Shown here in pieces: positions 5,734 to 60,368 of a stretch of 64,000 nt of DNA. The DNA comes from Chitinophagaceae bacterium (lineage in GTDB: Bacteria; Bacteroidota; Bacteroidia; Chitinophagales; Chitinophagaceae): the NCBI GenBank assembly GCA_017882265.1, contig JADGPW010000122.1, positions 1 to 64,000 on the forward strand, written 5' to 3'. Position 1 is the stretch's first letter, and every line of letters begins with the position of its first letter. The notes under the pieces are model-generated. The model was not told the DNA's origin. It searched no databases and saw only the letters and a program-made list of their open reading frames with translations. Position numbers and translations under genes: made by a program.

Positions 5734-5831
5734 GGGATTAGGAATTGGGAATTTGGGCCCCCTTGCAGTTCTTACGAAATTTTTACTGTAGGGCCCAATT
5801 CCCAATTCCTAATCCCTAATTCCTAATCCCC
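5734..5831. repeat. Large palindrome, family D copy 1
   Basis: Arms at 5734-5760 and 5791-5816 are reverse complements made of the words GGGATTAGGAATTGGGAATT; further TAATTCCTAATCCC words trail to 5831. It fills the gap between the 515-residue protein gene and comEC. Confidence 0.88.
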
Positions 5832-5844
5832 GATTCCACTCCTT

Positions 5845-10802: not shown

Positions 10803-10905
10803 GAACAGATGAACAAGGAATGTCGAATTTCGAAGGACGGTGCATTCAGTATGACTGTACGTAGTTCATCTGTTCTAAACTCCTTGTTCCTCTGTTCTTC
10901 TGTTC
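10803..10905. repeat. Large palindrome, family B copy 1
   Basis: The left arm is built of GAACAGATGAACAAGGAAT and the right arm of its inverted words (TTCATCTGTTC, CTCCTTGTTC, CTGTTC). Its right end supplies the stop codon of the lipoprotein gene at 10904. Confidence 0.85.
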
Positions 10906-14189: not shown

Positions 14190-14285
14190 AACAATAGACA
14201 ATAGGCAATAGACAATGAACCCGTTGTTAATTCTTGGATCTAATTGCCAATTGCCTATTGTCAATTGATCATTGTCAATTGCCCA
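14190..14285. repeat. Large palindrome, family G
   Basis: Words ACAATAGACAATAGGCAATA at the left are mirrored by AATTGCCTATTGTCAATT and ATTGTCAATTG at the right around a unique centre. It fills the bcp to beta-barrel gene junction. Confidence 0.85.
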
Positions 14286-14403
14286 TTTTCCTGTGCCCAT
14301 CCTTTCTTGTAAACCAGCTTGTTTTCTTTTAATTTATATGTTGGTTACAAGCAACTTCCGGTCGTTTACTAACGATTATTTCCTGTTAACTAAAACGAAT
14401 ATC

Positions 14404-15382: not shown

Positions 15383-16198
15383 TTATATCACCCACTCCAC
15401 CTCCCCAAAATCAAACTCTTCCTCTATCCTATGTTGAACAACTAATTTTCCGTCAAGTGAAACGGTTTTTATCATTGCTTCAAAAACCCGATTTCCTTTT
15501 TTCAATCGTACTGTTTTATTTCTTTTATAAAGATGTTCAACATACCGATCATAAGTCCCGGAAAAATCTTCATCGATCAGTTTCCGGAAAGATTTAATTA
15601 TAAAACCACAAAGCTCCCTGGTCAGGTCGATAACATTATGATCTTTCCCGGTTATTTGCTTTAAAGAAACCGGATTCAATAACTCAGGTGGGAAAACCAC
15701 CTGGTTAACATTAATACCAATGCCGATTATTGCCCACTGCCACTGATCAGAAGTATACATACTGCTTTCGGAGTCCGACTGCCGACTGCCGACTGCCGAC
15801 TGACCACCCCTTACGACATTCTCAATCAAGACACCCCCTGCCTTTCTGTCCTGCCAATACAGATCGTTGGGCCATTTTATTTTACAACCTTCGCCGGCGT
15901 ATTTCATAAAGAAATCATGAACAGCTACACCCACAGTAGCACTAAGCATAAACTGCTGTGAAAGCAGCACCGGCTGAGGTCTTAATAACACACTGAGAAG
16001 GATATTAGCCCCCTTTTCAGAGGCCCAAAACTTACCCCTCTGACCCTTCCCCGCAGTCTGCTCATGGGCAAATACTGCAGTGCCATTCTGCGCTAAACCA
16101 TCCCGTATCAGGCTCCGGGCATAGTTGTTGGTACTGTCAACCGATTGCAACTCAATGAATGGTGTGCCGGCTGAACCGGGGAAAAGGGGTTGTGGCAA
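15383..16198 (-). CDS. birA: Biotin--[acetyl-CoA-carboxylase] ligase
   Basis: Attaches biotin to the carboxyl carrier protein of acetyl-CoA carboxylase through biotinyl-AMP. The 271-residue protein has SVDSTNNYARSLI, the GKGQRGKFW adenylate-binding loop, KIKWPNDLYWQDRKAGGVLIEN and GIGINVNQ. There is no N-terminal HTH domain, so it is a monofunctional (class I) ligase. Residues 133-150 are an in-frame repeat insertion just before QWQWAIIGIGINVNQ, in the loop after GGVLIEN. It is divergent from rsfS, with a family H palindrome in the shared upstream region. Confidence 0.92.
   Translation of the reverse strand: MPQPLFPGSAGTPFIELQSVDSTNNYARSLIRDGLAQNGTAVFAHEQTAGKGQRGKFWASEKGANILLSVLLRPQPVLLSQQFMLSATVGVAVHDFFMKYAGEGCKIKWPNDLYWQDRKAGGVLIENVVRGGQSAVGSRQSDSESSMYTSDQWQWAIIGIGINVNQVVFPPELLNPVSLKQITGKDHNVIDLTRELCGFIIKSFRKLIDEDFSGTYDRYVEHLYKRNKTVRLKKGNRVFEAMIKTVSLDGKLVVQHRIEEEFDFGEVEWVI
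15749..15802. repeat. In-frame repeat insertion inside birA (family F words)
   Basis: 54 bp (18 codons) containing four tandem CGACTGC-type words. The same words make up the large family F palindrome at 24302-24545. It encodes a Ser/Gln/Gly-rich peptide replacing a short loop. Boundaries are inferred from conserved BirA sequence on both sides. Confidence 0.75.
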
Positions 16199-16220: not shown

Positions 16221-16330
16221 TAACTGGTTTCTTGTTGCTAGTTGCTGGATAATTGTTGCTGGTCACTTGTTGCTGGTTTCTGGGTAAGACCCGATCCTTT
16301 CAGCATTCGGTAACTAGTAACCAGCAACTT
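16221..16330. repeat. Large palindrome, family H
   Basis: TTGTTGCTAGTTGCTGG words on the left oppose TAACTAGTAACCAGCAACTT on the right. It occupies the birA/rsfS divergent spacer. Confidence 0.82.
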
Positions 16331-22510: not shown

Positions 22511-22595
22511 TTGAACCACATAGGCATATAGATACATAGAAATACACGTAGAATTCTATGTGAACCTTATATACCTATATGCCTATGTGGTTCAA
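22511..22595. repeat. Large palindrome, family C copy 1
   Basis: TTGAACCACATAGGCATATA at the left is mirrored by TATATGCCTATGTGGTTCAA at the right as exact 20-bp arms; ACATAGAAATACAC words fill the interior. It lies in the spacer before mscS. Confidence 0.92.
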
Positions 22596-24301: not shown

Positions 24302-24545
24302 ATCAGTCGGCAGTCTTGCAGTTTTGCAGTCAGGCAGTCGGCAGTTTGGCAGTCGGCAGTCGTCCAGTCGGCAGCCTGGCAGTTGCCATTTAGCAATTGA
24401 ATATTAAATGACTCAACAATTTATTAGAGGGCTGCTGACTGATAGACTGCAGACTGCTTACTGAGAGACTGCTGACTGCCGACTGCCCGGCTGCTGCCCC
24501 TCGGCTGCGCTCGGGGTGACAACGACTGCCGACTGCCCCACTGAC
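24302..24545. repeat. Very large palindrome, family F
   Basis: The 244-bp element has a left arm of CAGTCGGCAGTC words in near-tandem and a right arm of GACTGCCGACTGC words. A CCCTCGGCTGCGCTCGGGGT palindrome is nested in the right arm. It spans the whole gap between the thioredoxin gene and merR, reaching the merR stop codon. The same words are found inside birA. Confidence 0.88.
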
Positions 24546-25132: not shown

Positions 25133-25188
25133 CAAAGCCCGTTGTGTTTAAACGCAGCTATATCAAAGTGTGGAAAAGTTCAATTTAA

Positions 25189-25323
25189 AAGATAAAAGTT
25201 GAAAAGATAAAAGATAAAAGTGTTTCAAAGTTGAAAAGACCCTACGGTTTTGAGAAGGTATCAAAGTTGTAGGGTCTTTTCTTTAAAGGACACTTTTATC
25301 TTTTCACTATTAACTTTTATCTA
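25189..25323. repeat. Large double-hairpin palindrome, family E copy 1
   Basis: The outer arms are GATAAAAG words (left) and CTTTTATC words (right). An inner stem pairs GAAAAGACCCTAC with GTAGGGTCTTTTC around TTTTGAGAAGGTATCAAA. It lies between merR (divergent side) and the M23 peptidase 3' end. Confidence 0.88.
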
Positions 25324-33166: not shown

Positions 33167-33255
33167 TTTGAACCACATAGGAAGATAGGCACATAGAAAT
33201 ACACATATAGATTACTATGTGATCACTATGTTTTCTATGTCCTATGTGGTTCAAA
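33167..33255. repeat. Large palindrome, family C copy 2
   Basis: TTTGAACCACATAGGA mirrors TCCTATGTGGTTCAAA; the interior has ACATAGAAATACACATA words also found in copy 1 (and inverted in copy 3). It lies after gatB. Confidence 0.9.
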
Positions 33256-46942: not shown

Positions 46943-47095
46943 GGAATGTCGAACAGATGAACCCACGCAATACTGCGGGGCAGGCAAGGAATTATGAACA
47001 GATGAAGTAATGCACGAATACAAAGGAAATCCGGGAATATAGGGAATGTACGGACTTCAGCGTTCTGAATTCCTTGTTCATCTGTTCGACATTCT
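46943..47095. repeat. Large palindrome, family B copy 5, with nested small palindrome
   Basis: Left arm GGAATGTCGAACAGATGAAC, right arm GTTCATCTGTTCGACATTC. A 23-bp GC-rich segment (CCACGCAATACTGCGGGGCA and three more bases) interrupts the left arm between GATGAAC and AAGGAAT. It separates the divergent RND and porZ genes. Confidence 0.88.
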
Positions 47096-54284: not shown

Positions 54285-54375
54285 TTTTGAACCACATAGG
54301 ACATAGCAAACATAGGAGGCACATAGGGTACTATGTGTGTATTTCTATGTGCCTATGTTCCTATGTGGTTCAAAA
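54285..54375. repeat. Large palindrome, family C copy 3, between direct repeats
   Basis: TTTTGAACCACATAGGA mirrors TCCTATGTGGTTCAAAA; ACATAG words fill the interior. A 15-bp direct repeat GTAAATCCGGTAATG lies on both sides, at 54256-54270 and 54388-54402. Confidence 0.9.
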
Positions 54376-58276: not shown

Positions 58277-58285
58277 ACCACGGGA

Positions 58286-58452
58286 TAGATAAAAGATAAT
58301 AGATAAAAGATAATAGTGCCTGAAAGCAGAAAAGTTCTTACAGCTTTGATAATGTTTCAAAGCCGTAAGATATCTTCCCTTTAATGAACTATTATCCCCG
58401 CCTGACTGACGTAAGTCGGGCAGGTTTTATCTGTTCACTTTTATCTTTTACC
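58286..58452. repeat. Large double-hairpin palindrome, family E copy 2, with nested insertion
   Basis: Outer words AGATAAAAGATAATAG against CTTTTATCTTTTA; inner stem GAAAAGTTCTTAC against GTAAGATATCTTC. A second, GC-rich palindrome (CCCGCCTGACTGACG and CGTAAGTCGGGCAGG) interrupts the right arm between ATTATC and TTTTATCTG. Confidence 0.85.
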
Positions 58453-58820: not shown

Positions 58821-58960
58821 GGGTAGATAATAGTGAATAGTTAATAGATAATAGTGACTTAAAGATGAAAAGGCTTTACGATTTTGAAACTTTATCAAAT
58901 GCCTAAAGTCTTTTCTGCTTAGGAAACTATTATCTATTAACTATTCACTATTATCTATCC
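58821..58960. repeat. Large double-hairpin palindrome, family E copy 3
   Basis: 35-bp outer arms (58821-58855 and 58926-58960) match at 34 positions and consist of GATAATAGT and GAATAGTTAATA words. The inner stem pairs GAAAAGGCTTTA with TAAAGTCTTTTC. Confidence 0.92.
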
Positions 58961-58964
58961 TCTT

Positions 58965-58972
58965 TATCTTTG
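58965..58972 (+). promoter_or_regulatory. Putative serS promoter -7 element
   Basis: TATCTTTG, 18 bp before the serS ATG and 4 bp after the palindrome arm. Any -33 element would have to lie within the palindrome. Confidence 0.5.
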
Positions 58973-58990: not shown

Positions 58991-60265
58991 ATGCTGCAGG
59001 TTCAGGCATTAAGACAAAATCCGGAGGGAGTAAAGGAAAGACTAACCATCAGGAATTTCCAGGAGTTAAACCTTGTTGATGAGATCATTGCATTGGATGA
59101 TCAGCGTAAGAAATGGCAGGCTCAGTTTGATACCACACAATCAAAAGTAAATTCAACCTCAAAAGAGATCGGTCAATTGATGGCAAAAGGGCAAAAGGAT
59201 GAAGCCGAAACCCGGAAACAGGAAGTGGCTGATCTTAAATCATCTTTACAACCTATTCATGAAAAACTGGCGGCTACAGAAAAACATTTACATGATCTAC
59301 TCGTCAAGCTGCCAAACCTTCCTTCTGCAAAAGTACCGCCGGGAAAAACCCCGGCGGATAATGTAGTGGTAAAAGAAGGCGGCCACAAACGACCATTACC
59401 CGCTGATGCTCTTCCGCATTGGGAGCTTATAAAAAAATATGATCTCGTTGATTTTGAAACAGGAGCCAGGATCACCGGAACCGGCTTTCCACTGTATAAA
59501 GCGAAAGGTGCCAAATTACAACGGGCATTGATCCAATACTTTCTTGATTTTAATATAGGAGCCGGGTATATGGAATACGCTCCCCCGCTACTGGTGAATG
59601 AAGCTTCTGCTTTTGGTACGGGACAGTTACCAGATAAAGAAGGGCAGATGTATTATATGCCCGCAGATAATTTTTACCTGATCCCGACAGCAGAAGTGCC
59701 AGTCACCAATATTTACCGTGATGAGATCGTAAAAGAAACTGACTTGCCCATCAAAATGACAGCGTATACACCTTGTTTCCGAAGAGAAGCCGGAAGTTTT
59801 GGTAAAGAGGTTCGGGGGCTGAACCGGGTGCATCAATTTGAAAAAGTGGAGATCGTTCAATTAGTTCATCCGGGTAAAAGTTATGAAGTGCATGAAGAAA
59901 TGGTGCATCATGTTGAACAATTACTTCAATCCCTGGAATTACCTTACCGGATATTAAACCTGTGCGGTGGCGATATGAGTTTTACTTCAGCGCTAACTTA
60001 TGATTTTGAAGTGTACAGCGCCGCGCAGGAAAGGTGGCTGGAAGTAAGTTCTGTTTCCAATTTTGAAACTTTCCAGGCCAACCGGATGAAGATCCGTTTT
60101 AAGGATAGTAATGGCAAATCTCAACTGGTACATTCATTGAATGGAAGTTCTCTGGCCTTGCCGAGGATTGTTGCTTGTTTGCTTGAAAATAATCAGTCTG
60201 CTGATGGAATTTCATTACCACCGGTATTACATAATTATTTTGGGGACTCAATAATCAGGAATTAG
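58991..60265 (+). CDS. serS: Serine--tRNA ligase
   Basis: Charges tRNA-Ser (and tRNA-Sec). The 424-residue protein has the N-terminal coiled-coil arm (DEIIALDDQRKKWQAQFD to about residue 110) and class II motifs: motif 2 in TPCFRREAGSFGKEVRGLNRVHQFEKVE (as PCFRREAGSFG and RGLNRVHQFEKVE), and motif 3 in NGSSLALPRIVACLLENNQ. The ATG at 58991 (MLQVQALRQNPEGVKERL) is standard. The TTG at 58970 that opens the frame lies within the promoter element. The last codons and stop fall inside a family D palindrome. Confidence 0.96.
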   Translation: MLQVQALRQNPEGVKERLTIRNFQELNLVDEIIALDDQRKKWQAQFDTTQSKVNSTSKEIGQLMAKGQKDEAETRKQEVADLKSSLQPIHEKLAATEKHLHDLLVKLPNLPSAKVPPGKTPADNVVVKEGGHKRPLPADALPHWELIKKYDLVDFETGARITGTGFPLYKAKGAKLQRALIQYFLDFNIGAGYMEYAPPLLVNEASAFGTGQLPDKEGQMYYMPADNFYLIPTAEVPVTNIYRDEIVKETDLPIKMTAYTPCFRREAGSFGKEVRGLNRVHQFEKVEIVQLVHPGKSYEVHEEMVHHVEQLLQSLELPYRILNLCGGDMSFTSALTYDFEVYSAAQERWLEVSSVSNFETFQANRMKIRFKDSNGKSQLVHSLNGSSLALPRIVACLLENNQSADGISLPPVLHNYFGDSIIRN

Positions 60266-60368
60266 GAATTGGGAATTAGGGATTAGGGATTAGGAATTGG
60301 GATCAGCACTCTGCATTACAGACTATGCGCCCTAATTCCAAATCTCTAATTCCCAATCCCTAATTTCT
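60257..60368. repeat. Large palindrome, family D copy 2
   Basis: AGGAATTAGGAATTGGGAAT words at the left, CCCTAATTCC and CTAATTCCCAATCCCTAATT at the right. It contains the serS stop codon on one side and the end of the broken monooxygenase gene on the other. Confidence 0.88.

Follow-up and report, generated by a model that had tools for sequence, protein, structure and literature searches.

Tandem CAGTCGG words inside birA and between genes in the genome of a Chitinophagaceae bacterium

The window analysed here, a stretch of 64,000 nucleotides from a Chitinophagaceae bacterium, contains a birA-like gene for biotin–protein ligase and an imperfect palindrome located between genes (Table 1). On the coding strand, the insert in birA begins with four CAGTCGG words (CCGACTG on the forward strand), followed by 26 non-word bases (ACTCCGAAAGCAGTATGTATACTTCT), and both parts jointly encode QSAVGSRQSDSESSMYTS. 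The original prediction attributed 18 extra residues of BirA to tandem words. The four words are exact and lie in an 18–19-residue loop that is extra relative to most relatives, but words account for 28 of the 54 bases, or roughly half of the insert. In an alignment with 29 relatives, the BirA loop is ~14–19 residues shorter in most of them, and the 54-base insert is short or absent in most. Conserved BirA protein sequence, the competing source of the words named with the original prediction, was ruled out by these alignments because the relatives do not retain the stretch. An AlphaFold model of BirA (mean pLDDT 90) places strands at residues 118–130 and 152–163, and the segment between them has a pLDDT of ~51–54; the insert is thus modeled as a disordered loop between two strands. 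The array would be a tolerated passenger of this surface loop with no catalytic role. In G020, the closest genus with repeats, other heptad words are found in the same BirA loop, and one metagenome-assembled genome (MAG) holds two birA alleles (L232 1–562 and L233 3865–4421) whose DNA is 87% identical. The loops of these alleles (26 and 25 aa) differ in heptad content and by one residue in length, with the frame kept. Because the alleles carry different words and lengths at this position, the BirA loop is a recurrent site with content that turns over. The two alleles offer a natural series of insert turnover.

Table 1. Positions of the birA insert, the intergenic palindrome and the transposase genes. 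Coordinates are those of the window unless a locus (L) is given.
Feature	Position	Strand	Basis or description
birA-like biotin–protein ligase gene, 271 codons	15383..16198	-	ORF list; Pfam BPL_LplA_LipB 3.6e-18; PDB BirA matches
54-base insert (QSAVGSRQSDSESSMYTS), loop between two beta strands	15749..15802	-	Alignments; AlphaFold model
Four exact tandem CAGTCGG words, read as QSAVGSRQS	15775..15802	-	TRF 4.0 copies, 100%; codon reading
Imperfect palindrome, 244 bases, CAGT words in left arm, ACTG words in right arm, 69-base spacer between main chains	24302..24545	.	Intergenic
Left arm, CAGT chain	24304..24368	+	9 words, spacing 7,8,8,8,7,8,7,8
Right arm, ACTG chain	24438..24485	-	7 words; more words on to ~24544
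REP-like hairpin GTCACCCCGAGCGCAGCCGAGGGG within right arm	24497..24520	-	Oriented as CAGT words
RAYT-like Y1 transposase genes	L230 1200-2000; L231 1200-2000		Own distinct short repeats: GTCCCGTAGGGAC type; CCTGAAAGGGCG type

The palindrome, which also contains 8-base words, folds at −131.7 kcal/mol (z −9.2 relative to shuffles). The 12-mer GCAGTCGGCAGT (≤1 mismatch) matches the window at 10 positions against 0.10 expected, and all 10 are within birA or this element, which bears out the claim that the palindrome is built of the birA word. Several other repeats were observed in the window. Inverted pairs of GAACCACATAGG and CCTATGTGGTTC, with arms ~57–60 bases apart, lie at 22513–22593, 33170–33252 and 54289–54371. 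The repeat GAACAGATGAAC occurs in seven exact copies, some of them in inverted pairs (10803–10875, 46951–47087, also 11642, 13574 and 19698), and 12-mers near it suggest a longer word family (GAACAGATGAACAAGGAATGTCG). Tandem heptads of other words (CCCAATT, AATTGCC, GTTGCTG, TAAAAGA, AGATAAA, AATAGTG and AATTAGG) are found at 5794–5837, 14191–14287, 16241–16277, 25186–25318, 58285–58316, 58824–58969 and 60253–60365.

The genome containing the window is a draft MAG of 4.02 Mb in 293 contigs (90% complete). The 20-mer GCAGTCGGCAGTCGGCAGTC (≤2 mismatches) has 289 matches genome-wide and none for the reversed control; among 100 relatives, seven other genomes have any match, with at most nine each. 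Similarly, three CAGTNNG words followed by CAGT match 141 times here, whereas none of 118 other family genomes has more than 10 matches. The repeat unit consists of CAGT and a variable linker of 3–4 bases, mostly CGG; the commonest linkers are CGG, CAG, AAG and TGG, AGG is among the variants, and the CAGT core is less variable than the linker. Arrays were located in sampled DNA totaling 1.25 Mb with the window (31% of the genome), the first 545 kb of which was chosen for its arrays. The second sample of 60 contigs avoided the array-bearing contigs already taken and is depleted in CAGTCGG, so this sample was used for other heptads only. A period of 7 is the most enriched, with 62 segments at lag 7 and 0–15 at the other lags between 4 and 13; on other contigs the counts are 29 at lag 7 and 2–9 at other lags. 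The chains counted contain 4 to 18 words. The same 7-base word thus recurs in tandem at many loci, as in a heptanucleotide repeat, and intragenic and intergenic copies form one family with dozens of further loci in this genome, as had been proposed. A literature search for the word CAGTCGG itself found nothing.

A second module is embedded in the arrays. The REP-like hairpin of the window has 32 copies genome-wide (≤3 mismatches) and none in the reversed control. Its unit GTCACCCCGAGCGTAGCCGAGGGG, which is also present in the window palindrome, is read as VTPSVAEG in the same inserts and is oriented as the CAGT words in every case inspected. Other palindromes adjoin heptads as well: GTAGAGACAGGGCATGCCCTGTCTCTAC and its variants are found in several heptad-bearing intergenic regions (L080 ~4130, L102 ~6280, L106 ~1620 and L097 ~6620), and the perfect palindrome CCCGATAGCTATCGGG is read through in genes as APDSYRDG (L077 3057–3072, L090 8005–8020 and L107 7063–7078).

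With genes called by an in-house coding model on the draft MAG, 23 of the 54 array places in the first 545 kb are wholly in genes, 9 lie across gene ends and 22 are intergenic. From sequence recognition, we take the array-bearing genes to encode phosphoglycerate kinase (PGK), ValS (twice), MetG, ArgS, UvrA, LpxB, WaaA, LipA, MnmH (twice), dehydrogenase E1 and E2, ribonucleotide reductase and a copper ATPase; PGK and BirA alone were checked against PDB or Pfam. The insert in PGK comprises 36 residues and is absent from five relatives, the protein being otherwise 398–399 aa, and PDB phosphoglycerate kinases align to either side of it. Comparison with as many as five relatives shows further clean inserts of 21 residues in ArgS, 13 in WaaA and 27 at the C-terminus of LipA, and LpxB and MnmH each have two insert stretches. 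In every gene examined, the frame is intact after the array and into conserved domains. A dihydrolipoamide acyltransferase-like gene (L100 8178–10208) carries alternating heptad and REP-like modules, with repeated VTPSVAEG, between its domains. The CAGT words of genes are in sense in 24 cases and in antisense in two, both in MnmH, whereas other heptads in genes are oriented by their G-rich strand 5 with the gene and 12 against it. In-gene orientation is therefore word-dependent, as would be expected if the peptide is under selection. Coding copies are mostly single arms in sense and not palindromes, with two exceptions in MnmH, where both arms are read through; most of them thus do not represent insertions of the palindrome.

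The word itself is permissive for translation. Stop codons are absent from (CAGTCGG)n in all six frames, and since 7 mod 3 = 1, the same peptide cycle appears in all three frames of a strand: QSAVGSR in every sense frame and PTADCRL in every antisense frame. An array can thus be read through in any phase. Among heptad words, those that carry stops on both strands lie in genes in 2 of 41 cases and all others in 40 of 145 (p = 0.0013), and CAGT-core words are in genes in 25 of 64 cases, compared with 15 of 82 for other words open on at least one strand (p = 0.008). The original prediction also held that coding copies are constrained to a multiple of three. As the net insert in an intact gene is a multiple of three by necessity, the spacing of steps was analyzed. 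The 457 intergenic CAGT-to-CAGT steps are 7 bases long in 58% and 8 bases in 39%, whereas the 138 coding steps are 7 bases in 84% and 8 bases in 14% (Fisher p = 9e-9, steps within one array not being independent). Where coding arrays contain 8-base steps, these mostly alternate with 7-base steps, which gives a 15-base (five-codon) unit. Identity at lag 21 is 0.718 in coding and 0.612 in intergenic arrays, and identity at lag 7 is nearly equal. Both the step spacing and the lag-21 identity fit a reading-frame filter. Duplicated higher-order blocks are multiples of three in three of four coding and one of seven intergenic cases, among few arrays. The constraint therefore holds for the net insert and appears in the word spacing, but not in the array itself, which consists of 7-base words in runs of any number. 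In birA, for instance, the array is 28 bases, so the words alone are unconstrained and the whole insert is constrained.

Between genes, the arrays are oriented by another rule. They start near the gene on their 5′ side and run away from it on the G-rich CAGT strand, at a median of 37 bases compared with 164 bases to the other side, and are nearer to that gene in 46 of 56 cases (p = 3e-5); where the 5′-side neighbor is a stop codon, the array begins a median of 6 bases past the gene end. Neighboring CAGT arms in this genome are convergent in 18 cases and divergent in none. Heptads of other words in the same genome, oriented by the G-rich strand, follow the away-from-gene rule 91:17 (p = 2e-13), and their pairs are convergent in 23 cases and divergent in none. 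For 79% of heptads, the nearer gene is the one predicted from the direction of base skew, compared with 60% of random intergenic windows. At loci of other phyla, CAGT pairs are convergent 10:0 and pairs of all heptads 21:5.

The birA stretch probably belongs, as a coding copy, to a dispersed family of directional heptanucleotide repeats that spread by array copying and slippage and were subsequently held by purifying selection. Arrays would originate and spread as copies of existing ones, through template switching or ectopic conversion in the course of repair, and multi-word slippage would also contribute to their gain and spread. Purifying selection may then keep those coding copies that have a net length divisible by three, that encode a hydrophilic peptide in sense and that are located in exposed loops, linkers or chain ends. 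Copying by template switching or conversion together with slippage is favored because no reverse transcriptase domain was found, the RAYT genes are accompanied by other repeats and the palindrome spacers are mostly unrelated. Specifically, RVT_1 has no match in this genome (90% complete), so repeats templated by reverse transcriptase (telomerase-, DGR- or retron-like) were dropped. The genome has two RAYT-type Y1_Tnp transposase genes, each beside repeats other than CAGTCGG, and RAYT transposition was rejected on this basis. A BLAST comparison of the palindrome spacers found no common core except in one pair, which shares a 34-base piece at 88%; since the spacers are mostly unrelated, joint copying of both arms does not account for every palindrome. 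The steadiness of the CAGT core relative to the linker counts against simple copying, which does not require it.

Several other origins were weighed. Each array could be an independent local microsatellite, produced by polymerase slippage on the spot. In many bacteria, 7-base units are reported to be the most abundant of the long simple repeats (Mrázek, 2007, as related in PMC4679880), and some heptad families here were found only once or twice. However, independent origins would be expected to yield unrelated words, contrary to the recurrence of one word with variant linkers (CAG, AAG, AGG and TGG) at dozens of unrelated loci and of an embedded 24-base REP-like module in fixed orientation, which makes this origin quite improbable. 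It is also unlikely, though slightly less so, that the arrays are non-autonomous mobile elements, similar to Rickettsia palindromic elements (RPEs) or MITEs and moved by a transposase supplied in trans. Arrays are dispersed, palindromic and in frame in unrelated genes, as described for RPEs (PMC10969869); the MnmH inserts read through both arms, and one element pair shares a piece of its spacer. Nevertheless, coding copies are mostly single arms, the chains counted vary from 4 to 18 words, the arrays have no common ends, elements in general have no common spacer, and both Y1 transposase genes adjoin different repeats. No cognate transposase was identified for the arrays, and target duplications were not evident in the palindrome flanks looked at.

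Intergenic arrays might instead be functional hairpins (terminators, insulators or protectors of mRNA 3′ ends), with coding copies as spill-over. The start of arrays just after the stop codon of the 5′-side gene, the convergent polarity without exception in this genome and the folding of the window element, 9 standard deviations better than shuffles, all agree with such a role, but arrays are also present between divergent genes, which need no terminator, single arms are common and the words vary among families and genera; we regard this function as rather doubtful. Selection of coding arrays as protein linkers or phase-variation switches is very improbable. The E2 inserts do lie between domains, which are natural linker positions, and each gain or loss of a single 7-base word would shift the frame, but the array-bearing genes are housekeeping enzymes without a common theme, every array is in an intact frame and the same enzymes of relatives lack it. 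Finally, a draft MAG of 293 contigs, some of which end near repeats, could raise the suspicion of an assembly or binning artefact. This is scarcely credible, as all genes examined keep their frame through the arrays and on into conserved domains and the same pattern is found in other genera and phyla.

For the preferred combination of copying and slippage, the polarity of 18:0 and 23:0 is a difficulty, as neither plain slippage nor template switching accounts for it. Such polarity would follow if arrays grew toward the gene and were stopped at its edge, or if 3′ ends were extended at breaks. There is some chance, which we put as low, that heptads of any word in distant bacteria grow or survive with their G-rich strand only away from genes and with opposing arrays head-to-head, pointing to a general and undescribed process of directional writing. 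If true, a general process (e.g., 3′-end extension at breaks near genes) would produce both intergenic hairpins and accidental in-frame peptides in essential proteins. A polarity rule common to unrelated words, to Xanthomonas and to Nostoc strongly constrains proposals of mechanism.

The word extends beyond this family. Exact (CAGTCGG)3 was found in more than 114 stretches of GTDB genomes from many phyla in a scan for CAGTCGG alone. At loci below 60% GC, the array lies in sense within putative conserved proteins of other phyla. By sequence recognition, these presumably include an AsnB-like protein (Ignavibacteriaceae MAG), a carbohydrate kinase-like protein (Chloroflexota), a glycosyltransferase-like protein (Nitrospinota), a helicase-like protein (Dehalococcoidia) and others.

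Simple repeats are generally excluded from the middle of bacterial genes (Lin and Kussell, as summarized in PMC4692102). In the present genome, many essential enzymes have acquired and retained a simple repeat, with clear traces of a reading-frame filter, and the same word behaves likewise in several phyla. The arrays naturally mark loops of core enzymes that tolerate insertion, and they provide a test case for the spread of heptads.

Among known systems, the best reading is a directional heptanucleotide repeat akin to the published GGGAATC and TAACTGA repeats that has been unusually successful inside genes. GGGAATC or GGGGA(C/T)T heptamers occur in Xanthomonas and Nostoc, with 183–186 repeats per Xanthomonas genome; they lie mostly close behind the 5′-side ORF (averages of 28 and 160 nt), form convergent inverted pairs on opposite strands and generally have no association with mobile elements (Rehm et al., 2015, PMC4692102). 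The arrays described here are likewise dispersed 7-base tandem words, nearer to the 5′-side ORF and in convergent pairs, so this geometry was already known for one other word. In contrast, 7–11% of the GGGAATC repeats touch ORFs, where they are under-represented on the coding strand, and their GGG tracts form quadruplexes (Rehm et al., 2015, PMC4692102), whereas 23 of 54 places are wholly in genes here, 24:2 in sense, and CAGTCGG has only GG and no such tracts. TAACTGA heptamers, known from Beggiatoaceae, Cyanobacteria and five Bacteroidetes, mostly precede start codons and do so in one direction, with a single inverted repeat; their few ORF copies are in the stop-free direction only, mainly peripheral and many in hypothetical proteins (MacGregor, 2015, PMC4679880). 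Both words form heptamer direct repeats common to several phyla and partly located in ORFs, but the interiors of essential enzymes are occupied here and convergent pairs are common. As described in PMC10969869, RPEs are units of ~150 bases in defined families, inserted in frame in unrelated and often metabolic genes (Ogata et al., 2000, 2002). In-frame insertion that adds a recurrent peptide to protein genes is shared with RPEs, but the present copies are open-ended arrays of 7–8-base words, mostly one arm, of variable length and with no shared core. REP/RAYT systems resemble the arrays in their short palindromes of fixed polarity, and the arrays have a REP-like module embedded in them, although the RAYT-type genes of this genome adjoin other repeats and not the REP copies.
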